A stretch of 42,889 nucleotides of DNA, from IMG/VR virus record IMGVR_UViG_3300045996_001122, positions 1 to 42,889 of that record; one strand, written 5' to 3'. Under the pieces are notes generated by a model that did no database searches, was not told the DNA's origin, and saw only the letters and a list, made by a program, of their open reading frames with translations. Every line of letters starts with the position of its first letter. The first letter of the stretch is position 1. Source of the stretch: a virus. A program made the translations under genes and the position numbers. Shown here in pieces: positions 14,536 through 34,237 of the stretch.

Positions 14536-14697
14536 TTACTTATGCGACAGAAATAACGCCAGTAACCCTGCGTACGCTCCCGCCAACGCTACTTTAATAT
14601 AGTCCACCGTCTGCTTAAACCCTAACACTTGGTCGATCTTCTGTTCCATCCGTTCAAGGCGGGCGTCGATCCGATCTATGGGGTTCTCGTTAGTCAC
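14536..14697 (-). CDS. XhlA-like small membrane lysis protein
   Basis: This 53-residue protein starts at a GTG that overlaps the stop of the holin-like gene by eight bases. It has an N-terminal amphipathic coiled-coil (NPIDRIDARLERMEQKIDQV) and a C-terminal transmembrane helix (VALAGAYAGLLALFL). This architecture is that of XhlA/hemolysin-type phage lysis accessory proteins. As the last gene of the late operon, beside holin and endolysin, a lysis role is likely. Confidence 0.6.
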   Translation of the reverse strand: MTNENPIDRIDARLERMEQKIDQVLGFKQTVDYIKVALAGAYAGLLALFLSHK

Positions 14698-15262
14698 GGT
14701 GATTTACGACACGATCAATAGTGGCGTCCTTCTGTTGTGATCCATGACTAGTGCCCCAACGAAACGAGAGAAGTAACATGAATGCGGCGTCTACCGTACC
14801 AAGCACACGCCCGATGAGAACGGACGCGCCGGGGTCCATGCCCGTTAACGTTGCGTGAGAAAACACCCAATACTCAGCATACCCGAATGCGGCACACACA
14901 CCCGCGGCAAGAAACGGTTCATAGTCGAACTTCCCGCTTGAGAGCCAGTGCTTCTTGAGGTCTTGCGCCCCCTTGACGCTCTCAGCTTCAAGTTGTTCGA
15001 GGTACTTTGTAATGTCAATCTCTAACCGTTTGAGGTCGAGGGTAAACTGTTGCTCCGCGGTCTTCAGCTTCAGCAGGACTTCAGGATTAGCCCCGGTAAG
15101 CACCTTCGCAAGGTACTCTTCAGGCTTGGCGGGGGGCGCTTCACCTTCGGGGAGAATAGCGTCGAGAATTGCCGTTACCCCCATCCCCGCAAGTGGAGTA
15201 CCGAATACGGACGCAATGGTCGGGGCAACGGTTTTAACGATCTTTTTCCAATCGAAGTCCAT
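14690..15262 (-). CDS. Three-TM holin (GTA/3TM holin family-like)
   Basis: This 190-residue protein starts at ATG 15262 with GGGAGGAAG just upstream; the ATG shares a base with the endolysin stop. It resembles the 3TM holin family found in podoviruses and gene transfer agents: an N-terminal hydrophobic Gly-rich segment (VAPTIASVFGTPLAGMGV), a charged helix near 65-100, and two C-terminal spans (FLAAGVCAAFGYAEYWVF and GRVLGTVDAAFMLLLSF). It should permeabilise the inner membrane at lysis. Confidence 0.75.
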   Translation of the reverse strand: MDFDWKKIVKTVAPTIASVFGTPLAGMGVTAILDAILPEGEAPPAKPEEYLAKVLTGANPEVLLKLKTAEQQFTLDLKRLEIDITKYLEQLEAESVKGAQDLKKHWLSSGKFDYEPFLAAGVCAAFGYAEYWVFSHATLTGMDPGASVLIGRVLGTVDAAFMLLLSFRWGTSHGSQQKDATIDRVVNHRD

Positions 15263-15606
15263 TACTTCCTCCCGTTCCACTCGAAACTAAAGTGATTACC
15301 GTCTTGAAACCGCCCACCCCAACGTAACGGCAACCCGTGTTCAATCCCCATCACCTCCCACAACTCGCCCGCCTTCTGATAGTCAAGCGTGTTGGTGAGG
15401 TACTTCTTGTCCTTGTACAACAGTAAATCAGCGGCTAACCCTAACTCGTGTAACGACCCTTTCATGTGATCCGTCGTGGGGTCTTTCGGGGTAATCCGAT
15501 CCGTTACTTCATCGAACGCAACCTCGTACCCCTCCCACGTAGACACTTCCACCACAAACCACGCGAGTTGTTTGCTAAAGGCGCACCGGGCTTCTCGGAG
15601 TGTCAT
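15262..15606 (-). CDS. M15-family endopeptidase endolysin
   Basis: This 114-residue protein starts at an ATG overlapping the preceding stop (ATGA). It has the zinc site of peptidase family M15 (VanY/L-Ala-D-Glu peptidase type): SLHELGLAADLLLY, giving the H and D ligands, and LRWGGRFQDGNHFSFEW, giving the catalytic and third zinc-ligand residues. It would cut peptide bonds in peptidoglycan. No signal peptide is present, so release depends on the adjacent holin. The length fits single-domain phage M15 endolysins. Confidence 0.87.
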   Translation of the reverse strand: MTLREARCAFSKQLAWFVVEVSTWEGYEVAFDEVTDRITPKDPTTDHMKGSLHELGLAADLLLYKDKKYLTNTLDYQKAGELWEVMGIEHGLPLRWGGRFQDGNHFSFEWNGRK

Positions 15607-16064
15607 AACTTCACACACTCACGAAACGTAGGGTCGGTGCTGAGATACCCCCCAACCCACACGTTCATGTTTTGGAGTTCATTACTGGCGTTTGACAGCG
15701 CCCCCGTGAGCATGAATCCAGGGGGAAGTACTAACGGGACCGTCGTATGAATTGACGGTTGTTGTTCGGTAATCGTGATCGCGTCCCACAACATGAGGTA
15801 GTTGTTCCGGTGGGTGCCGTTGTTGAAGATGTTCTTACTCGAAAAGTGAAAGTCGGTGAGACCGAGGTACTTTCCCGCGGGGACAATGTACGGGAAGCTA
15901 TACCCGTAGGGAGTGTAAGGGGGTTGGTACGAGAGAGAGGTAATAAACTGTTGCGTCCACGGGGGCACAGCGGCCACGTTTGCCGTAATTTGAATAAACT
16001 CACACGTCGCATGAGCAAGGGCAGGGGAGAGAAGGGCGAGGGTAAGGAGGAGGGCGCGTAACAT
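15603..16064 (-). CDS. Exported late protein with N- and C-terminal cysteines
   Basis: This 153-residue protein opens with a clear Sec signal peptide (LRALLLTLALLSPALAHA) and a predicted cleavage before a Thr-Cys. The mature protein is beta-rich, with many Pro, Tyr and Thr residues. It holds exactly two cysteines, one at the mature N terminus and one four residues from the end, which could form a closing disulphide. It lies between the tail fibre and the endolysin. The function is unknown: an exported fibre-associated protein or a host-envelope protein are both possible. Confidence 0.65.
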   Translation of the reverse strand: MLRALLLTLALLSPALAHATCEFIQITANVAAVPPWTQQFITSLSYQPPYTPYGYSFPYIVPAGKYLGLTDFHFSSKNIFNNGTHRNNYLMLWDAITITEQQPSIHTTVPLVLPPGFMLTGALSNASNELQNMNVWVGGYLSTDPTFRECVKL

Positions 16065-17358: not shown

Positions 17359-20300
17359 TTAATTACCGGCGATGGTGAGGGCGTCGAGGTCTACGGTGGA
17401 GTTCTCAATGGCGTCGTCTGAGGGGACTACGGGAACGGACTTCATCTTACGAGCTTTCTCTTTCGCGGCGTCTTTCATGGCTTGCTTGATTTCGGGGTGC
17501 TTCTTGAGCATCTTCAACTCGCCCATTTCCACGAAGGCGTGGACGAGGTGCCGGATCATTAAAGACTTCCGACCGTCAGGGCCGTCACTTCCACGCTTGT
17601 AGGTGCCGGTTTCCATCATGTGGGCAAGGGACTCGTGGAGGTTCCGCCCGCCCTTTTTGACCTCGTGAGTAATGATCTTCTGTAACTCGTGGGCCGCTTC
17701 AGGGGTGAGCTTCACACCATGTATCTCGTCGTCAGCGGTGGAGACTTGCGTACCATGTTTCACAATCTCGTTGAGTACCTTATCGTCCTTAAACTCCCCC
17801 TTGAGTGGGGAGAAGACGACAGGTTCTCCCGTGATCGGGTGGAGGCGGGGTAGTAAGTCCTTCGAGAGGCCGGGGGTACGTTTACGGGCTTCCTCAATCA
17901 ACCCGTCAGCTTCACGGACAACGGGGTCGAGTTGTTTCGTGGCGAAGTTCGTCATACCCGCCCCAAGTCCCGGGGTCAACGAAATAGCTTCCTTCTCAAG
18001 GGTGGACGTAAGGAACTCATCGGGCATAGCGAACGCTAACATGGTACGTGACAACCCCTGAATCCACGTCTTAGAACTCATCGCCTTGAACGTGGCCAGG
18101 GCTAACGACGCGGCTAAGTCTTCCGCCTTGTCGTAGCCGTTCGCTACTAACTCGTAATAGTTCGCCGCCATTGAGAGCATTGACCCGAGGGGTTCGATAC
18201 GGTTGATCGGTTTGAGTACGTCGCCCTTTCTCCACGACGGGTCTTCCCCGAGGGCTTTACGTTTAGTAGCCGACACGTTCCACGAGTAGGGTATATACCC
18301 TGCTTCGCGCCACACTTTCGCTTGGTCGGGGAACTTCTTGGAGTCTGGACCCGCGCCCGTGATCAACCCATCCGACGCCCACAACACCCCTAAGCCTGTG
18401 AGGAGTGCGCCGGTCTGAAGTTTCGCTAGGGCTAACTCCGCACGTGCGCCCCCTTGGTTCAGTTCGTGATACGTAGACTTGGCGAAAAGGGCGAGGGGGG
18501 TACGTTCCCCGACGATTTTGAAGATGTTCAAGGGGGCTTTGAGGAACGGGACGACGAGCTTGACGGCCAGGAACTTATTCGCCCCTTCCTGCATCCATTG
18601 ACCAAACTCGCCTAACTGAGTGGAGGCGGTGTTGTAGGCGGCGAACTTTTCCGCCTTCTGTTGAATGTCTACAGGAACGTCAGCGCGATACTGTTCCGTC
18701 AGCTCCTTCACCTTCGCCGCGAGCTTCTTCCCGGTCAACCCTTCCGCGTTGGCGACGTTGTACGCTTCCCGTAACGAGAGGGCGTGTATCTCCATCTGAA
18801 AGTTAATGGACTTGAAGAACTCGTCAGCCGTCAACAGTAACCGCCCGCCCGCGCCTTCCATAAAGGCGGACAGGTAATCGAGCGGGGCACCGAACGGACC
18901 TAACTTCTCCACGTCTGAGAACATGGCTTTCGGGGGACGTTCACCCTTCGACGCGCCAAACTTTGCCGCGGCTTCCCCGTCACGGGCAACCTTCGCCGCT
19001 AACGTGAGGGCGTCCCCGAACCCCGCAAACATGCCCTGAACCATTGCAAGGGCTTCGGTAGGGCGGACTTCTCCACCCGCGAGACCCGCTACCCCGCGTT
19101 CAAAGATCGACATAGCGGACATGGTAGCGTTGCCGAGGGAGTTGAAGACGTGAGTAGTCGGGGCGCTTAACAGTGAATTAATGAACAACGGTACGAAGGC
19201 GTCCTTAAACTCAGGCTTGACGGCGTTCTTGGCGAGAGAGGCTAACTGTTCAGGCGTCTCAAGTTCCTTCACCATGTCCACAAGACGTTGCGCGGACATG
19301 CCCGTCTTGGCCTCGTTGAGGAGGTCGCTAAACTGGTCAAGGAAGAGGCGCATGGCCTCCATTTCAACGGGCTTATCTACCCCAAGGATACGTTGCGCCC
19401 GTCCACTCTCAGCCGCCGCCCCGAAGCGTTTAGGGTCGAGCACCATCCCGTGAGTCCAAAACGCCTTCAGGAACTCTTGTAAGGAGGCGTCGTCCGTCAC
19501 ACTTCCCGCGAGGTCTAACACTTGTCGCCCCGACTCGGTGAGGACTTTATGGAGGGCGTAGGTTTCCTCGACGTTGAGGGCGGTTCCCGGCATGAGGCGT
19601 TGAATGGTCTCGGGTGTAATCGCGGCGTAGTCGATTAACTTCTCACCCCCCGCCATTGCTTCGGGGTCGGACACCACCCCACGCTTCTGAAATTCAACCA
19701 AGTTACGGTATTGGTTTTGAAAGTGGCCTATGTCGAGGGACGGTTGCACAACGGACGCCGCTTCCACGCCGCCCGCTGTTTGTCCCCCGACCTTGGGAGC
19801 TTTACCTTTCGCACCCTTCACGAGTCCCGCGATACGTTTGATAAGGGCGGGTGAGGCTAACCCACCCCCTAGCGCACCAATAACGGCGTTCCGTACAGCG
19901 TTCTCCTCGTCACCCGCCATTGATCCCGCAACCGCGCCGAGTATGGCACGGGTGAGGAACATCGCCGGTTGAACGTTGACAGACCCCTTCTCGTTGCCGA
20001 TGTTGTTACGGATTATTTTAGGTAACGACTGTAAATACTCGTCAACTGCTTGGAAGGTGCTACCCATTAACGACTGAGGGTTGCGTACGACAGCTTCGGA
20101 CATGGCGGGGGTGACGGGGAGGGAGTGAACTGTTGCAACGCCGTCTTGATATAACCCTTCCCCATGTTGCCGACTGTTTAAGGGGCCGTCACTTACACTG
20201 AATTGAGTCGTCTCAACCTTACTCCCCCACTTCTTCCCGTACTTATTCAAGAAGCGTGGAACAATCTCGTCATAGAAGCCCTTCATCCCTTCGCCGCCGA

Positions 20301-23802: not shown

Positions 23803-23886
23803 ATGACCTTTTCAGAGTGGGTGTCAACCGTGCTAATTCATATATTGGCACGAATTTTACCGGGTGAGTGGTGGGAGGATGTATGA
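23803..23886 (+). CDS. 27-residue amphipathic leader peptide of the moron cassette
   Basis: ATG 23803 follows AAAGGAGGG at good spacing. The 27 residues (TFSEWVSTVLIHILARILPG then a Trp/Asp end) could form an amphipathic or membrane helix. The stop overlaps the lipoprotein ATG, and the lipoprotein's ribosome site lies inside this frame. It may be a functional microprotein or only a translational leader. Confidence 0.5.
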   Translation: MTFSEWVSTVLIHILARILPGEWWEDV

Positions 23887-24101
23887 TCTACCTTATAGTG
23901 TTAGCTGCGTTACTGAGTGGGTGTTCAGCGGGACACTTCGTCTTGTTCGATATTGATTACGCCCCAATCGGCTATGAAACGTGTATGTCGAAAGGGGTGA
24001 AGGACGCTGAGGGGTGTTATCAAGAAGCTAAGGCATTAGGACGACGAACGCTTGCATACGGCGTGGACCACGGGATTGTCACCCTTAACCGCGGGTTGTA
24101 A
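23883..24101 (+). CDS. Outer-membrane lipoprotein moron (candidate exclusion protein)
   Basis: This 72-residue protein starts at ATG 23883 behind GGGAGGAT. It has a short signal sequence and a textbook lipobox (LLSGC, lipidated C14) with Ser at +2, which favours sorting to the outer membrane. Two further cysteines (ETCMSKGVKDAEGCYQ) can pair in the periplasm. It is on the plus strand inside the minus-strand structural operon, with its own promoter, and overlaps the gp14-like 3' end by 17 bases. This fits a moron, expressed from the prophage. Small phage lipoproteins such as T5 Llp and phi80 Cor block receptors; an outer-membrane spanin is an alternative. Confidence 0.65.
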   Translation: MIYLIVLAALLSGCSAGHFVLFDIDYAPIGYETCMSKGVKDAEGCYQEAKALGRRTLAYGVDHGIVTLNRGL

Positions 24102-24582
24102 GCGGGGCGCTTCCAGTCTGTCCTAACTTATACGAAAGCCCCGTCTGTCCAAAGCCCGTCAGTAACGTCGAACCCGCCCCAATCCAACTATTTTTCTGTG
24201 CGACTTCACCCTGATACCGTGACTGTTGGGCGCTGAACAGGTAGCCTTGTTTGGCTAATCGTCCCTGTTCCTGAATCCTGAACGTATCCATGTCTTGAAT
24301 GTTGGCGGTTTCCGTCAACACTTCTAACGCCGACCCCGACCGCTTCACCCCCGCCGCCGCATACCCCGCCCGTTGCTTCCCACCGATCACGCTAAACTTC
24401 CTCGCCAACTGGTCGAGTTGGTCGTGCATGGCAAGGTCGGACTGTTGGGCGTTGAGTTCGGCAATGTGGGCGTTTTGTTCGCCTACACGTTTAGCGGCGT
24501 TCCCGGCCTCAAGCTGTCCAAAAGCACTCATCCCTATTCCAGCGAGGGAGATTGCGGCGAATACGGGGGCGGCTACGGCCAT
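24085..24582 (-). CDS. Internal virion protein, gp14-like
   Basis: This 165-residue protein is TAATG-coupled to the gp13-like gene. It begins with a hydrophobic Ala/Gly-rich segment (AAPVFAAISLAGIGMSAFGQ), followed by a long helix (AKRVGEQNAHIAELNAQQ) and the AAAGVKRSGSALEVL motif that is typical of T7 gp14-type core proteins of podoviruses. Such proteins form part of the internal core and insert into the outer membrane during ejection. Confidence 0.78.
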   Translation of the reverse strand: MAVAAPVFAAISLAGIGMSAFGQLEAGNAAKRVGEQNAHIAELNAQQSDLAMHDQLDQLARKFSVIGGKQRAGYAAAGVKRSGSALEVLTETANIQDMDTFRIQEQGRLAKQGYLFSAQQSRYQGEVAQKNSWIGAGSTLLTGFGQTGLSYKLGQTGSAPLTTRG

Positions 24583-26986: not shown

Positions 26987-27565
26987 TTAGTAACGTATGT
27001 CGGTGAGAATCGAGGAGGTCTGTTCTTCCTGGTAATCGTCTTGCCCGTCCGCAACCTTCGCTTCCTTCATCTTCTCTAGGTACTCACCCCACATGGACTC
27101 ACGGTAGTTTTGTTTCCCCGTGATCGCGTTAGCGAGTTCAAAGGCTAAGAGGGCTTCGAGGGCGTCTACGTGGAGGGAGTCGTAGGAGGCAACGTCGCTA
27201 TTGTCGAATACGTATGTGATGTAAATGGACGACTCATCCGTGACGAGTACCCGTTGACCGTTATACGTTTCGAGCTTGTAGGCTTCGTCGTATTGGTCAA
27301 TGGAGGTTTTGACCATCTTCATAAAGTCTGACGGGAGGGCGAAGATGTACGTGTATTCCCACGCGGGGGTGGCGTCGATCTGTGCGAGGGCGACACGTTT
27401 GATAGAGTCGTTCCAGTTCCCCTTACGCAAGAGGGCTTGTCGGGTGGTATCGAACTTCCGGTTACACCACCGGGCGCGGTTGGAGTTATCGCTGAGGGAC
27501 GTTATCGAATCGTCGCCTAACTTCCCGAGAGCGTTTGAGCAAATAGAAACGGTTGTATTAGCCAT
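26987..27565 (-). CDS. Tail tubular protein A (adaptor, gp11-like)
   Basis: This 192-residue protein has the gp11 adaptor pattern: an N-terminal ICSNALGKLGDDSITSLSD, then a helix NRARWCNRKFDTTRQALL, WEYTYIFALPSDFMK, and a second helical part with ALLAFELANAITGK. It joins portal to nozzle. The start overlaps the previous gene by eight bases, and only 15 bases separate it from the gp12-like gene. Confidence 0.87.
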   Translation of the reverse strand: MANTTVSICSNALGKLGDDSITSLSDNSNRARWCNRKFDTTRQALLRKGNWNDSIKRVALAQIDATPAWEYTYIFALPSDFMKMVKTSIDQYDEAYKLETYNGQRVLVTDESSIYITYVFDNSDVASYDSLHVDALEALLAFELANAITGKQNYRESMWGEYLEKMKEAKVADGQDDYQEEQTSSILTDIRY

Positions 27566-27773
27566 GACGTAGTGGGGCTTCCGTGGGGTGTTCCTTCACG
27601 CCGTAGAGCTTGTGAAAGTCGGCGCGGGCTTTGTCGAGTTGGTGAGAAAGGCGGGCGTACTCAATGCGGTCGTTGCGATGTTTCACCATGTCACGAACGA
27701 GGAGTTGGACCTTGCGTTCTAAAGCCCCTCGTCCCGCTCTGTCAGGTAAAGGAAGGTTCGGTACGTGTTCCAT
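27558..27773 (-). CDS. Small coiled-coil protein before the tail tube genes
   Basis: This 71-residue protein starts at ATG 27773, sharing a base with the stop of the large exported protein (TAATG). Residues 12-58 form a basic amphipathic helix or coiled coil. The role is unknown; it may be a tail assembly chaperone given its position. Confidence 0.6.
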   Translation of the reverse strand: MEHVPNLPLPDRAGRGALERKVQLLVRDMVKHRNDRIEYARLSHQLDKARADFHKLYGVKEHPTEAPLRHG

Positions 27774-30538
27774 TAGTTCCCCCCACCCGCCATTACCGGC
27801 GTCGTGGTGAGACACGCCCCGGCGCTAGGGGTGTATGCGTCCATCGGTAGTTCAGTTTGATGGTATTCTTTGAAACAATACGTCTTCCCCGACGCAACGG
27901 ACGACGCAAATTGGATGACACTTCGTCGCACGATTGAAGCGTTTTGCGCGAGGTCGAACAGTGGAACAGCCGACGCGGTGAATTGTGTACTTCCGTCCGT
28001 GCAACTCAACGCCCCTGTCAACGGACATGTAACCGCGCCCGACACGACGGTACTATCTGACGTATTGCCATAGAACGATACGCCGTCCGACGTGGGGGCG
28101 TCAGGGAGTGGAAGGAAAGTTCCCCCGTCCACGTTGTAGTACAACTTCAACCCTGTCGGGTCGCAATTCGCTACCGTACAATCAATCTGTGTGATGAGTT
28201 CTAACGCCCCGCCGACAATCACGAGGGGGGTAATACCGTTCGCGGTGCCATTAATTGTGAGGTCGTCCGCGGTGCCGCTGATATTCTTTCGTAATCGTTG
28301 CCATTTATGGGTCTTCTGTTCAAAGGTGCCTACGGGGTCTGAAGCAACTTGATTCCAGGCGGTGTAGTCGTCGGCAACTTCTTGGGCTGTTAAGGCGGAC
28401 GTGTAGAGTTTGAAGTCGTCGATTGTGGCCCCGGTTGTTCCACCGGCAATCCCACCAATGCGCCCGAGTTCAATGTTGCCGCTTAACGTAAAGCTCGTAT
28501 ACGCCTTGACCGCCGCCGCCGAGGTCCCCGCTACCCCATTCACATATAAGGTTGCGATGTCGGTTCCGCTATTGAACACCGCACATACACGAGTCCACGT
28601 CGCTTGAACCGCAAATTCCGTTGCCGTACCTGACGGGCTTGATTGCACCCCTAAGCCCCAGGTCGCCGATACACCGTTTGAGTCCCACGAGATATAAAAG
28701 CGTTGGTTCGTCCCAAGTGGCGCACCGAGGAGGCCGTGATTTGCGAGTAACGCCGTGGCGGTAGGAAGCACCCCGACGCACATCGTAAGACTTTGCGTCG
28801 AAGGATTGACCCCGCTTCCGTACCCAGTGGCGACGTATTGGCTTGCGTTCTCTGTGAAGAGGACACCGTTCCCCAATTTCCCGAGGGTCCACGCGGGGTC
28901 ATTAGTGAGGGTGCCAGGTTGATCCGCCCCCTCTTCGTCAGCAACGGACGTTCCGGTGCCTTCGTCGAACTTGTAGTACACATGCAAACCACCACTCGGA
29001 GGCGTCCCACCGCTTCCTGTACACGTCGCCGTGACGCTTTGCCCGCTGAAGGCAAGGAGGGATTGATTGAGGGAGTTTCCGAGGAGACTTGAATCGGTGA
29101 CGTTCCCGGGGGTGTACGAGACAGTCCACGTTTGCCCGACCGCACAATTTCCCGTTCCCCCAATACCTGAGAGCGTAAGTTGGATGACGCTATCGCTCCG
29201 TCTCGACGCCGACGCCACAACGGGCGTTCCGCAATCACTCCCCGAACACCCCACCGTAAACCCAGTAATTCCCGACGCGGGAAGGAGGGGGGTGTTAAGG
29301 CTCATTCCTAACGTGACTTCCATTACATTCGCGTCAATGGAGGCGGTCGAGAGGGGAATACTTTCAAACGCGCCAATGTCGGGGGCACTCCCGTTGTGGT
29401 TGTAGCCTGAGAGGGCGGTTCCCGTATTGAGACAGGACGAACCCGCTTTTTGCGTAAAGTCTGTTGTAGAAACCGTACACGAGGTAACGGCGGTAATTGT
29501 GACCTTACTCGACCCGCACGACTCACTACTCGTACACGCGTTAAAGCTGTTCGTCGTACCGGACGCACTGGCCTCGACAAGAATCTCAGTACTTCCGTTT
29601 GCAATCACAAGGTTATTCTGAACGGTCATATTTTGACCGGCCCCGAATAACCCGACGTAAATTCCTACGCCGCTATTATTATAGACAGTGTTATGGGCAA
29701 TGAGGCCTGCGTTACACCCCGTCCCCCCTTCGGGGTAGCCGCACTTAATGGCGTTAAGCGTATTCCCGATAAAGAGATTGTGAACGATTACGTCCCCGGT
29801 GCCGTCAAGCGTAATCCCGTCAGCGTTATTGACGAACCTGTTGTATCGGATCGTACAGTTGTTCGCTTGATCCGCCCCGAGACTCACGTAACATTGGATG
29901 GCGTTCCCGCCCTTGTTATCGTGAAAATAATTGTACTCGTACACGGAGTTGTCGCCTTTTGCGTAAATGCCGTGATATTGGTTCGTGGTGGTCTGTCCGT
30001 TTCTGTCAATCTCGTTATATTGAACAGTGGTAAACGGACAGATATGATTGATCCCGTCTCGGGTGTAATTCGTGATCCGCGTTCGCTTAATGGTAAGATG
30101 GTGACAGGCGGACGTATTCGCGGTTCCGATACCCGTCTCAACAAGTTGTTGCCCGTCAAGCGTGAGGTCTCGAATTTCTAAGTAGGCGACGGCAAACGCC
30201 CCAATGTAAATACCCTGCCGACTAATCGTCGTCGCGCTGACCCCGTCCCCTTCAATAACAATCGGGTTGCCCGCGACACCCGCTTTTGCCGCGGGGATAT
30301 TGAATTGTGCGCCGGTCAGATTTCCCGTGACGTGGACAATATCCCCCGCCGCGGAGAGACAGGACCACGCGGACGAAATGGTTGCTTTATACGTTCCGGG
30401 GTCAGTGTCACCGTCCACGGACGCGCACGCGTTGGCGTCACTTCCGCCCGACTTTACCCAATACTTCGTGGCGTAGGCGGGGAGGGTACAAAACGCAGTT
30501 GTAGCGAGGAACGCAAGCGAAAGAACAAAGGTCCGCAT
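27773..30538 (-). CDS. Exported pectate-lyase-like beta-helix/LamG protein
   Basis: This 921-residue protein starts with a Sec signal peptide (RTFVLSLAFLATTAFC, then LPAYA). Residues 30-390 form a right-handed beta helix like pectate lyase or NosD proteins (repeats such as IRDLTLDGQQ, YNEIDRNGQ, ADGITLDGTGDV) ending in SAPDIGAFE. Residues 390-500 are a beta sandwich (SVIQLTLSG, WTVSYTPGNVTDSSL). Residues 515-730 are a LamG/concanavalin-like lectin (HVYYKFDEGTG, GATIDDFKLYTSAL). A further beta domain follows. The mature chain has 24 cysteines. It could be a polysaccharide-binding or -cleaving spike, but the signal peptide is atypical for a virion protein. The start has AAGGA. Confidence 0.72.
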   Translation of the reverse strand: MRTFVLSLAFLATTAFCTLPAYATKYWVKSGGSDANACASVDGDTDPGTYKATISSAWSCLSAAGDIVHVTGNLTGAQFNIPAAKAGVAGNPIVIEGDGVSATTISRQGIYIGAFAVAYLEIRDLTLDGQQLVETGIGTANTSACHHLTIKRTRITNYTRDGINHICPFTTVQYNEIDRNGQTTTNQYHGIYAKGDNSVYEYNYFHDNKGGNAIQCYVSLGADQANNCTIRYNRFVNNADGITLDGTGDVIVHNLFIGNTLNAIKCGYPEGGTGCNAGLIAHNTVYNNSGVGIYVGLFGAGQNMTVQNNLVIANGSTEILVEASASGTTNSFNACTSSESCGSSKVTITAVTSCTVSTTDFTQKAGSSCLNTGTALSGYNHNGSAPDIGAFESIPLSTASIDANVMEVTLGMSLNTPLLPASGITGFTVGCSGSDCGTPVVASASRRSDSVIQLTLSGIGGTGNCAVGQTWTVSYTPGNVTDSSLLGNSLNQSLLAFSGQSVTATCTGSGGTPPSGGLHVYYKFDEGTGTSVADEEGADQPGTLTNDPAWTLGKLGNGVLFTENASQYVATGYGSGVNPSTQSLTMCVGVLPTATALLANHGLLGAPLGTNQRFYISWDSNGVSATWGLGVQSSPSGTATEFAVQATWTRVCAVFNSGTDIATLYVNGVAGTSAAAVKAYTSFTLSGNIELGRIGGIAGGTTGATIDDFKLYTSALTAQEVADDYTAWNQVASDPVGTFEQKTHKWQRLRKNISGTADDLTINGTANGITPLVIVGGALELITQIDCTVANCDPTGLKLYYNVDGGTFLPLPDAPTSDGVSFYGNTSDSTVVSGAVTCPLTGALSCTDGSTQFTASAVPLFDLAQNASIVRRSVIQFASSVASGKTYCFKEYHQTELPMDAYTPSAGACLTTTPVMAGGGN

Positions 30539-30545
30539 TATGTCC

Positions 30546-31271
30546 TTATGGGAGGATGATAGGAGAAACGGGGCGGAGGGTAATCGCGTTAAGGGGGATT
30601 ACGACGTGCCAGAAGGTTCGAGAAGTCGCCGTCCAGGTGTAGTTCATTGGTGAGATAGTGGCCGTTGTTGTGATAGACACACAGTCCGAGTTACACCCTG
30701 TTCCGTTGTTAATCTGTTGTTGAGTTTGGTCTGCGCCTTGGGAAAAACTGGCCCACGCGGTTTGCGGACCGGCGAGAAACGCAACGGCCAACCCACCGCT
30801 ACCTACCGTGAAGGCGAGTGAATCGCCAGCGACGTTTGCGGTACTCTCCGTTTCGACAATCGTTCCTGTTGGGCTAGACGTATTGACGCCGGTAAACGAG
30901 CAAATAAAAATGTCACAACACCCCGACGAACTTGATGAGGTCACGCGTAACGTTTTGTTTCCCGCAGTAGGATTGGCAAGGCCGAAAGCCCTCCCATGTC
31001 CTGCCCCTACGCCGTTATTGTCAGCTAAGGCGGTCATGGCTTGCGGGGTGCCGCCTTGGTCCCAAGACGCCGCGCTGACGGTTGTTCCCGCGGAGTCGTT
31101 ATCGCCTTGCACGAAGACGACGAGATAATTAGCTCCCGCGCCTACCGTGTGCGCCGTGGTGTCGCAAGTGGTACAGGATGCAGGAGTCGCTTTCGTACAC
31201 GCGTCCAACGCAACGGCAGCAAGCGCCGACGTAGGCCAGAGGAGGCACAGTGTAAGAAGTAACGCCTTCAT
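30546..31271 (-). CDS. Exported Cys-rich beta protein
   Basis: This 241-residue protein has a clear signal peptide (KALLLTLCLLWPTSALA). The mature chain has eight cysteines in local pairs (SCTTCDTT, GCCDIFIC, GCNSDC), suggesting disulphides, and a beta-sandwich pattern rich in Thr, Ser and Gly. The start follows directly on the previous stop. Motifs such as LVVFVQGDNDSAG and FHTPE-like segments do not identify a family. It sits within a run of four exported proteins and is probably surface-exposed after export. Confidence 0.65.
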   Translation of the reverse strand: MKALLLTLCLLWPTSALAAVALDACTKATPASCTTCDTTAHTVGAGANYLVVFVQGDNDSAGTTVSAASWDQGGTPQAMTALADNNGVGAGHGRAFGLANPTAGNKTLRVTSSSSSGCCDIFICSFTGVNTSSPTGTIVETESTANVAGDSLAFTVGSGGLAVAFLAGPQTAWASFSQGADQTQQQINNGTGCNSDCVSITTTATISPMNYTWTATSRTFWHVVIPLNAITLRPVSPIILP

Positions 31272-32291
31272 TTAGTCAGACCGCGACTTCGTGGAGTATT
31301 CGAGCTTGAAGCCGAGAACGTGGAGAGTAGCGACGGCGGTTGTCGTTCCCGTGGCGTCTAATTGCCAACGGAATTGAAGGAGAGTCCCCGCGCCGGTACA
31401 GGTGCCGTTAGGAGTAATGGCCGCGGTTGTAACGGTGTCGATTTTGTTAGACCCGCCTAACGCGGAGTCCATCGCAATCTCAGTACCCCACGTATTGTTA
31501 ATCGTGTCCCCATCCACCCGACACGCCATTGCTACGTCGGCGTTGATGTTTGCGGTATCGGCGGCGGTTTGCACGAACGACCCGAGAAGCGTAACGGTCC
31601 CACCGTCCCACGAGTCGGGCATAGAGATTTCGCCATAGATCGTGGAAGCGTCGTTATCGGTACAAATAATGGTGTATCGGAGAGCGCCTGAGTTGATGGT
31701 ACGTTCGGTCGGTTGTCCGCACTGAGTTCCGTCTGTATTCAAACTGGCGGCGGGGAAAAATACCGACTTCAACGGGCGGTACGTCGAAGCATACGACCAC
31801 ATAGCCTGAACGGACGCGGCGTCAGGGTCCACCGTTTCGATACATTCAGTTGCCTCGACATTGTAGAGGCACCACGTCTGATTGGTCATAATCCGAGTCG
31901 TGGTGTTGGAAGCGGAATCCGGTTCGATAATCAATCCCGCCGTCGCGTCGTCGTAGATCAACCACTTCCGACCGGAGCTACCAATCTTCACCGCATTAGC
32001 GGCACTATTAGCGTTATCGGTTGACGCGCCACGCCCGACGACGGTATCCAGGGTGTCCGACTCTGAAGCGACAATAGCAACACTCACCGACCCGTCCCCG
32101 TTGTCAGTAACAGCGCCGTTCGTGAATTTGAGGGTACTTGCTGAAGCTGAAGGGTTCCCGTCTTCTTCAGCAACGGTTAGTGAACTACCGCTTGTCGCAT
32201 TTCCAGCCGGGGTGGTGACGGATGTACCGGCGTAACCAATCGCCGCAACACCGAGCAATACTAATATGGGTGCCCACAGTTTACGTATCAT
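31272..32291 (-). CDS. Exported fibre-like protein
   Basis: This 339-residue protein starts with a hydrophobic signal (APILVLLGVAAIGYAG). The following SLTVAEEDGNPSASASTLKF and TNGAVTDNGDGSVSV segments are like shaft motifs of environmental phage tail proteins. The C-terminal half is a beta domain ending in TLHVLGFKLEYS. The mature chain has six cysteines. It lies two bases after the previous gene's stop. It is likely a fibre or appendage protein, with export as the unexplained feature. Confidence 0.62.
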   Translation of the reverse strand: MIRKLWAPILVLLGVAAIGYAGTSVTTPAGNATSGSSLTVAEEDGNPSASASTLKFTNGAVTDNGDGSVSVAIVASESDTLDTVVGRGASTDNANSAANAVKIGSSGRKWLIYDDATAGLIIEPDSASNTTTRIMTNQTWCLYNVEATECIETVDPDAASVQAMWSYASTYRPLKSVFFPAASLNTDGTQCGQPTERTINSGALRYTIICTDNDASTIYGEISMPDSWDGGTVTLLGSFVQTAADTANINADVAMACRVDGDTINNTWGTEIAMDSALGGSNKIDTVTTAAITPNGTCTGAGTLLQFRWQLDATGTTTAVATLHVLGFKLEYSTKSRSD

Positions 32292-32293
32292 CG

Positions 32294-32665
32294 TTAGTAC
32301 ATGAAATACACAGCGCCAGTTGCCCCGGTGCCGGTTGTGTTAGTGGTGACGACGTAGTAGTACGTGAAGCTAGACGTAATGACGGAACACGCCGCTTGGT
32401 CCCGGCTCGTGTCGGTAAGGGTAATCGTACAAATCAACGCCCCGTTTGCGGCGTCGTCGTCAATATCACCGTAAATGGCTTGCGTTTGCGTTACAGCGCC
32501 AGTGCCGACCACTTGACCGTAGATGGACTTAAAGGAGTTGGCGTTGAGGCGAATGGGGCCGTACGTATCGTCGGCGTCCATTCCCGTAATGCCTTGAAGC
32601 TGTTGCGCCGACACCAACGAGGTAAGCCCTACCGTCAGCGCCAGAGCGAGGAGTAAACGTTTCAT
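32294..32665 (-). CDS. Small exported beta protein
   Basis: This 123-residue protein has a textbook signal peptide (KRLLLALALTVGLTSLVSA, cleavage before QQ). The mature part is beta-rich and contains two cysteines. AAGGA precedes ATG 32665. It is the first gene of the exported cluster and is preceded by strong hairpins at 32690-32760. Confidence 0.65.
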   Translation of the reverse strand: MKRLLLALALTVGLTSLVSAQQLQGITGMDADDTYGPIRLNANSFKSIYGQVVGTGAVTQTQAIYGDIDDDAANGALICTITLTDTSRDQAACSVITSSFTYYYVVTTNTTGTGATGAVYFMY

Positions 32666-33343: not shown

Positions 33344-34237
33344 TTACGAGAGGTTGTCGTTGTAGCGCATACGAGCGACACCCGCTTGAATGCGAGTTGC
33401 GCCCATCGTTTGACAGAGGTAAACCTGAGTGGCGTACGACTTGTCCGCCCGCTGGTCAATCTTGACCATCATGTCCTTCCCCATTGCGACACCGATTGCG
33501 TCACGGTGGAAGAAGTAGGCGTACTTGTCGTTCGAGTCACCCGAGATATGGGGGATCACTTCATCGCTGTTGATAAACAACCACTCGAACCCGAGCCACG
33601 TATTCAATTCCCCCTTGACCAACGCCTTGACGGTGTTGTAGTCGCTGGACGCGGCTAACGGGGCACTTGAAGCCGTAAGCAACTGAGAGGCGAACGCATT
33701 ACCCCCGACGAAGTAACGACCATCAGCGGGAATGTCCGCACGGTCCAAGTGAACCTTGTACTCTGCAACCTGTGCCGTGGTGACAGCGGCTGCCGAGTTG
33801 TCGTCGTCCTGAAGGTCTTCGTCAGTGAAGGCGACGGTTGTAGAACCATCCTCACCGCTCTTCGCATCGGCGTCCATTGCGAGGATCACTTCATAATCGT
33901 ACGCCCGCTTCATGGCGTTGGCGGCGTTAATGGCGTATTCACTCTCGGGGGTGATCAACAGTCTGATTTTGTCCTGTTGGTCCACGAGGTCGGCCCACTC
34001 GTAGTCAACCATCGTCACCATGCGGCGTGTGTGCTGACTGTTGACGAGGGGGGTATCACTGTGACGAGTCGTCCGTCGCACCGCGGCAGTTGCACCAAGA
34101 CGCTCAAAGAAGTGCGCCTTTCCCGTGACGGACTCTTCACGAACTTTACCTTTCAAAACACTCTGGCTCTGTTGCCAAAGGTGGATAACGTTACCCTTAA
34201 ACTGTAGAACTCTCGAAACTTCAATCGTATCGGACAT
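33344..34237 (-). CDS. Major capsid protein (Phage_capsid_2-like)
   Basis: This 297-residue protein has the pattern of the HK97-fold capsid family seen in BPP-1 and Bcep22-type podoviruses: FKGNVIHLWQQSQSVLKGKV near the start, DTPLVNSQHTRRMVTMVDYE around residues 60-80, a long helix with ITPESEYAINAANAMKRAYD, then YFVGGNAFASQLL and a C-terminal GATRIQAGVARM. It is flanked by scaffold and decoration genes as expected. AGAGG lies before its ATG. Its 5' leader is strongly structured. Confidence 0.85.
   Translation of the reverse strand: MSDTIEVSRVLQFKGNVIHLWQQSQSVLKGKVREESVTGKAHFFERLGATAAVRRTTRHSDTPLVNSQHTRRMVTMVDYEWADLVDQQDKIRLLITPESEYAINAANAMKRAYDYEVILAMDADAKSGEDGSTTVAFTDEDLQDDDNSAAAVTTAQVAEYKVHLDRADIPADGRYFVGGNAFASQLLTASSAPLAASSDYNTVKALVKGELNTWLGFEWLFINSDEVIPHISGDSNDKYAYFFHRDAIGVAMGKDMMVKIDQRADKSYATQVYLCQTMGATRIQAGVARMRYNDNLS

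Follow-up and report, generated by a model that had tools for sequence, protein, structure and literature searches.

Signal-bearing proteins with even cysteine counts as a candidate exported tail-fibre module in environmental tailed phages

The assembly of tail fibres in tailed phages is conventionally described as taking place in the cytoplasm, and in vitro, fibres or spikes are known to attach late to P22 and T4 particles that are complete in all other respects. Virion proteins made with signal peptides are represented by the coat proteins of filamentous phages; inoviruses leave the cell by extrusion through the envelope, whereas the viruses considered here are tailed phages with lysis genes. 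T7-type tail fibres (PF03906; fibres or spikes of epsilon15 and HTVC010P) resemble the proteins described here (P0 to P4, Table 1) in their late-operon position, in their receptor-binding C-terminal domains and in the docking domain of one signal-bearing relative. However, ordinary T7-type fibres are devoid of signals, as seen at 79 of 80 docking loci, whereas the module combines signals with cysteine richness and cysteine pairing. Lom of lambda and the SAR or signal endolysins are also sent through the Sec pathway (PMC12309495, PMC12571629), but these represent membrane or lysis proteins and not tail-fibre homologues. Furthermore, one paper describes phage-encoded DGR target proteins as lacking signal peptides. 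In the open literature searched on signal peptides in phage tail and structural proteins, accounts concern endolysins, Lom and signal predictions, with no exported tail fibres among them; no precedent for an exported tail-fibre module was found there.

The window analyzed in this study is the complete stretch of 42,889 nt of IMG/VR record IMGVR_UViG_3300045996_001122, for which sequence matches indicate a podovirus-type gene set. It encodes a head-tail connector (PF12236, 2e-112), a family A DNA polymerase and tail proteins of the tubular (phrog_394), nozzle (phrog_376) and T7-type fibre (phrog_1640) types, and its closest sequenced portal is that of Pelagibacter phage Baldr (40%). The genes for P0 to P3 are tightly packed, with intergenic gaps of 2, 0 and 7 bases. 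Signal-bearing homologues of P0 and P4 were found in contigs L007 (127 aa, 4 mature cysteines) and L039 (154 aa, 2 mature cysteines), respectively. A small ORF with a lipoprotein-like start (LSGC) is located antisense inside the late operon (positions 23868-24101, plus strand), and in the relative G006 a signal-like plus-strand ORF of 160 aa lies between the nozzle and tail tube genes (L039:15916-16398).

Table 1. Late-operon features of the window, numbered from its first nucleotide.
Feature	Position	Strand	Characteristics
P0, 123 aa	32294..32665	-	Predicted signal ~1-20 (LVSA/QQ) and small domain; 2 Cys
P1, 339 aa	31272..32291	-	Predicted signal ~1-21, variable stem, C-terminal fibre-tip domain, CBM35/36/6-like; 6 mature Cys
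P2, 241 aa	30546..31271	-	Predicted signal, beta domain of lectin/minor-tail-protein-like type, RPVSPIILP motif at the C terminus; 8 mature Cys
P3, 921 aa	27773..30538	-	Predicted signal ~1-23 (AYA/T), right-handed beta helix, LamG 566-722 and a conserved domain at the C terminus; 24 mature Cys
P4, 153 aa	15603..16064	-	Predicted signal ~1-19; 2 mature Cys; between T7-type fibre and lysis genes
T7-type tail fibre, 418 aa	16068..17324	-	Without signal, 0 Cys; candidate cytoplasmic tail-docking adaptor
Endolysin candidate (Peptidase_M15_4)	15262..15618	-	PF13539, 9.8e-6; end of the operon
Holin candidate	14690..15280	-	Proposed from position and hydrophobic C-terminal stretches; no family matches
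Head-proximal protein, 163 aa	32765..33256	-	Without signal; precedes the putatively exported block
Major capsid protein (Phage_capsid_2, 1.3e-62)	33344..34237	-	Without signal, 1 Cys; bounds the variable interval upstream
Tail tubular protein A type (phrog_394)	26987..27565	-	Without signal; bounds the variable interval downstream

Signal sequences were called by a home-made rule requiring a hydrophobic core of nine residues and an AxA-like site. The five late ORFs that the original prediction had described as signal-bearing (123, 339, 241, 921 and 153 residues) are located where it had placed them and all passed this rule; on its basis, P0 to P4 display the Sec-type features of a positive n-region, a hydrophobic core and an AxA-like site. 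Positive calls were also obtained for 18 of 268 non-module ORFs and for 33 of 2850 shuffled proteins (approximately 1%). Since the rule rarely fires on other ORFs or shuffled proteins, five positive ORFs, four of them adjacent, are not a product of chance. A podovirus internal protein of the window (24085-24582) has a signal-like N terminus as well.

A recount of cysteines in the mature chains gave 2, 6, 8, 24 and 2 for P0 to P4, all even as had been claimed, and the tail fibre of the same operon is indeed cysteine-free over its 418 residues. Precursors of P2 and P3 (241 and 921 residues) each carry one extra cysteine, located within the signal. Five even counts within the window alone have a chance of 1/32, and because this is weak, relatives were sought by single-protein and profile scans of IMG/VR and GTDB genomes. 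The resulting set comprised 68 module proteins, 65 of them with at least one mature cysteine, and proteins from the same loci served as controls; P2 to P4 had been chosen as signal-bearing neighbors of P1, which represents selection on the signal but none on cysteine number. Even mature counts were observed for 62 of the 65 cysteine-containing module proteins, compared with 51 of the 113 proteins in the control set (Fisher p = 7e-13), and after clustering at 50% and 30% identity for 42 of 45 (p = 4e-10) and 24 of 27 (p = 2.5e-5), respectively. Parity is therefore decisive once the relatives are included. Pooled cysteine content was 2.0% in the module versus 0.9% in the controls. In 16 proteins the signal itself contains an odd number of cysteines, and the mature count is nonetheless even in 15 of these; for precursor chains, even counts drop to 51 of 68. 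Parity thus appears only with the signal removed, as predicted by cleavage followed by complete pairing. Exported bacterial proteins preferentially contain cysteines in even numbers (PMC7678975). An exception to parity is represented by an unrelated signal-bearing fibre-like protein of 1218 aa with 11 mature cysteines (L145:8491-12147), encoded downstream of a docking-only stub of 236 aa without signal (L145:5959-6669).

Among module relatives, the P1 tip of about 180 residues is conserved and the stem is variable. In the tip alignment, two recurring cysteine pairs, A and B, were recognized, whose members come and go together: both members of pair A are absent from L025, both members of pair B are absent from L053, where two replacement cysteines lie 2 and 5 columns off, the old and the shifted pair B registers are both present in L056, and L058 and L059 feature an additional third pair. 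For P1 of the window, an arrangement of its six mature cysteines as three pairs is proposed. None of seven tips without signal (L060, two in L061, L062, L063, L065 and L066) has pair A or B complete, and most of them retain one lone pair A cysteine, opposite a phenylalanine; gp74 of EBPR siphovirus 2, which also has the tip domain and no signal, contains one cysteine.

These patterns bear on the reading that the N-terminal stretches are uncleaved hydrophobic segments, either in the virion or as a membrane tether, and that cysteine parity is coincidental. The simple rule used for calling signals is in line with it, as are the signal-like N termini of some podovirus internal proteins, such as the one mentioned above. 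However, parity in 62 of 65 mature chains versus 51 of 68 precursors and the pairwise covariation of cysteines argue against it. So does the relative G004, whose capsid protein is 54% identical to that of the window and which has two P2-family members, one of 245 aa with signal (L041:10549-11286) and one of 223 aa without (L010:13274-13945), the latter starting at the position at which the relatives' signal stops. Uncleaved segments are consequently regarded as extremely unlikely. Parity in relatives, its occurrence in mature but not precursor chains and paired cysteine changes restricted to signal-bearing homologues strongly support oxidative folding after export, as the original prediction had proposed, and for proteins of the P0 to P4 type in general, export together with disulphide formation is strongly supported at the sequence level.

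A consecutive signal-bearing set of P1, P2 and P3 was detected in about twenty other virus contigs from public metagenome collections, within unlike late operons (among them L003, L025, L026, L027, L031, L041, L044, L048, L050, L052, L053, L058 and L059). The usual order is P1, P2 (about 250 residues) and P3 (700-950 residues, with beta helix and conserved C-terminal domain); a small P4 frequently comes next, and by the signal rule nearly all members are signal-bearing. The set occupies the interval between capsid and tail tube genes in the window, precedes internal virion proteins in G004, and is located by the portal gene in L003 and by the lysis genes in L027. Since the surrounding late genes are unlike, it represents an exchanged module and not a single-lineage oddity. 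In the nearer capsid relatives L006 and L007 (68-72% identity), signal-bearing cysteine-rich proteins follow the capsid gene too; in distant capsid relatives (54% and below), the capsid-tail interval is devoid of such proteins. The broad alignment of P3 C-terminal domains (A7) was too diverse for scanning, and a narrower one added a single contig, L168, which carries a comparable trio. In L003, putative glycosyltransferase and methyltransferase-like genes, judged by the look of their sequences, are located among the structural genes beside the module (L003:13185-13985 and 18609-20194).

Signals, LamG, beta helices and CBM-like folds are common in exported bacterial proteins, and the capsid-to-tail interval varies among relatives. 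Both features would fit genes for bacterial surface proteins that were captured recently and travel as cargo, without any role tied to the particle. This explanation is considered very unlikely: the order of the three genes is kept across unlike viruses, homologues reside within tail gene clusters, and the 257-Gb collection of GTDB genomes yielded only two matching loci, one of which encodes a signal-less protein within a tail cluster.

Homologues of the P1 tip without signal sit in the tail gene clusters of L060-L063, L065, L066, EBPR siphovirus 2 (gp74) and Xanthobacter tagetidis L069, where the tip protein follows a protein of 1207 residues. Such signal-less fibres (gp74, L069, L061/L062) share the homologous C-terminal tip with the module but have no complete cysteine pair. 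Moreover, the signal-bearing P1 of L064 (1023 aa) is similar to proteins of cultured phages that are annotated as tail fibres or collar domains, and L064 and gp74 are 42% identical over 171 residues; the link of the window's own P1 to tail fibres runs via the shared tip domain only. Homology therefore favours a tail-fibre module over cargo as the identity of the P0 to P4 set. In an AlphaFold model of P1 of the window, calculated for the chain from residue 21, the tip corresponds to positions 154-315 of the modelled chain, is confident (pLDDT ~90) and matches CBM35, CBM36 and CBM6 domains (best Z 13.3 over 125 residues, 2.6 A). The modelled tip thus resembles a carbohydrate-binding fold, a likeness that alone is no proof of sugar binding. 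Searches of PHROGs with the P1 family gave no matches, and its single PDB sequence match, to an antibody, was judged to be due to chance.

For P2, the relationship to minor tail proteins of mycobacteriophages (Tweety, Tonenili and others; phrog_553) was observed at two levels: P2 of L041 matches phrog_553 by sequence (9e-7), and for a model of the window's P2 of moderate confidence (pLDDT 70) the best named viral matches are such proteins (BFVD, TM ~0.6), for which no comparable signal or cysteine pattern is implied. A match of this model to the exported prophage protein XepA (Z 7.8) was too weak for use. Many P2 proteins with differing preceding domains share a short C-terminal motif (RP..PI..Q-like; RPVSPIILP in the window), suggesting a docking peptide. 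In L044 (5292-6062) and L048 (1437-2255), P2 continues beyond this motif as a hydrophobic extension that overlaps with the beginning of P3.

Domain searches bore out the two domains previously assigned to the 921-residue P3, namely LamG (PF13385, 1.8e-11, residues 566-722) and a pectate-lyase-like beta helix, the latter recognized by phmmer against pectate lyase 1ru4 (7e-4, residues 233-392) and by Beta_helix matches in homologues. A right-handed beta helix is shared with tailspike depolymerases and other pectate-lyase-fold spikes, but P3 proteins differ from these in having a signal, 14-24 cysteines and, in some members only, LamG.

A further connection to the particle was obtained from G004, whose fibre of 890 aa consists of a predicted signal of 25 residues, a T7 docking domain, a stem and a tip of a second type, which also occurs in a signal-bearing 456-aa protein of L031. 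Its docking domain scores 28.1 bits against PF03906, above the cut-off of 25.2, and matches phrog_1640 (5e-30). A GAGG ribosome site precedes the start codon of the signal and none is present at the internal Met20; cultured fibres align from about residue 32 on. This signal-bearing docking domain is the only one found on the G004 contig, so that, if it did not join the virion, G004 would have no recognizable tail fibre. Among the 80 T7-type docking loci, a signal occurs in that of G004 alone, and a scan with the 890-aa fibre for further fibres of this build returned only its own contig. In P0 to P4 of the window, no tail-docking domain was seen in the domain search. The 418-aa fibre of the window matches phrog_1640 (4e-23) and scores 20.4 bits against PF03906, below the cut-off. 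The window, G009 and G011 each encode a docking protein without signal and with at most one cysteine, suggesting a particle adaptor that receives the exported fibres.

The same separate docking fibre is also in agreement with a different role, in which P0 to P4 are exported, disulphide-bonded free lectins and polysaccharide degraders that are never part of the virion and that, located in the periplasm or set free at lysis, loosen matrix, block receptors on debris or exclude other phages. Signals and disulphide signature fit this role equally, LamG and beta helix suit matrix binding and cleavage, and in the window the signal-less, cysteine-free docking fibre counts against virion joining, as exported proteins need not sit on virions. 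Moreover, fibres set free by lysis would become diluted on their way to the virions. In contrast, homology to tail fibres and minor tail proteins, the signal on the only docking domain found in G004 and the frequent proximity of the sets to lysis genes or to genes for internal virion proteins speak for the particle, and a purely free role is regarded as less likely, though as a serious rival. Of the three options originally left side by side (an exported appendage, a free adhesin or matrix-degrading system, and virion parts assembled outside the cytoplasm), homology favours virion parts.

Based on these results, P0 to P3 together with P4 are proposed to constitute an exported tail-fibre or receptor-binding module that joins virions at or after lysis, with a probability of roughly 0.6. 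Capsid, portal, tail and T7-type docking fibre would be made in the cytoplasm as usual, while P0 to P4 would be made late, cross the inner membrane by Sec and lose their signals, and all of their cysteines would become disulphides outside the cytoplasm. Lysis by holin and endolysin would then bring virions and folded fibres together, and the fibres would bind the tail. Thereby, the outer layer of the virion would gain carbohydrate binding (P1, P2 and LamG) and probably polysaccharide cleavage (P3 beta helix); in the G004 variant, the docking domain itself would be exported. Use of Sec in the real host, attachment to virions, its timing and enzyme activity are inferred. Whether tailed phages in several unlike environmental groups are built in two compartments by means of one exchanged fibre module is judged to be evenly balanced.

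If this holds true, the last assembly step would be placed elsewhere and the fibres moved into an oxidizing compartment, permitting disulphide-hardened fibres that could be shared among virions released together. In metagenomes, such phages could be recognized by a sequence rule, namely a fibre locus that combines a signal with an even number of cysteines in the mature chain. The 921-, 241- and 339-residue proteins of the window match none of 50,697 phage records by tblastn; P1 and P3 of L026 and P3 of L041 likewise gave no matches to these records, and the searches turned up neither a cultured phage with the module nor a virion proteome or structure that includes it. One contig, L031 (1-7674), carries two successive signal-bearing fibre-like gene sets belonging to different families.
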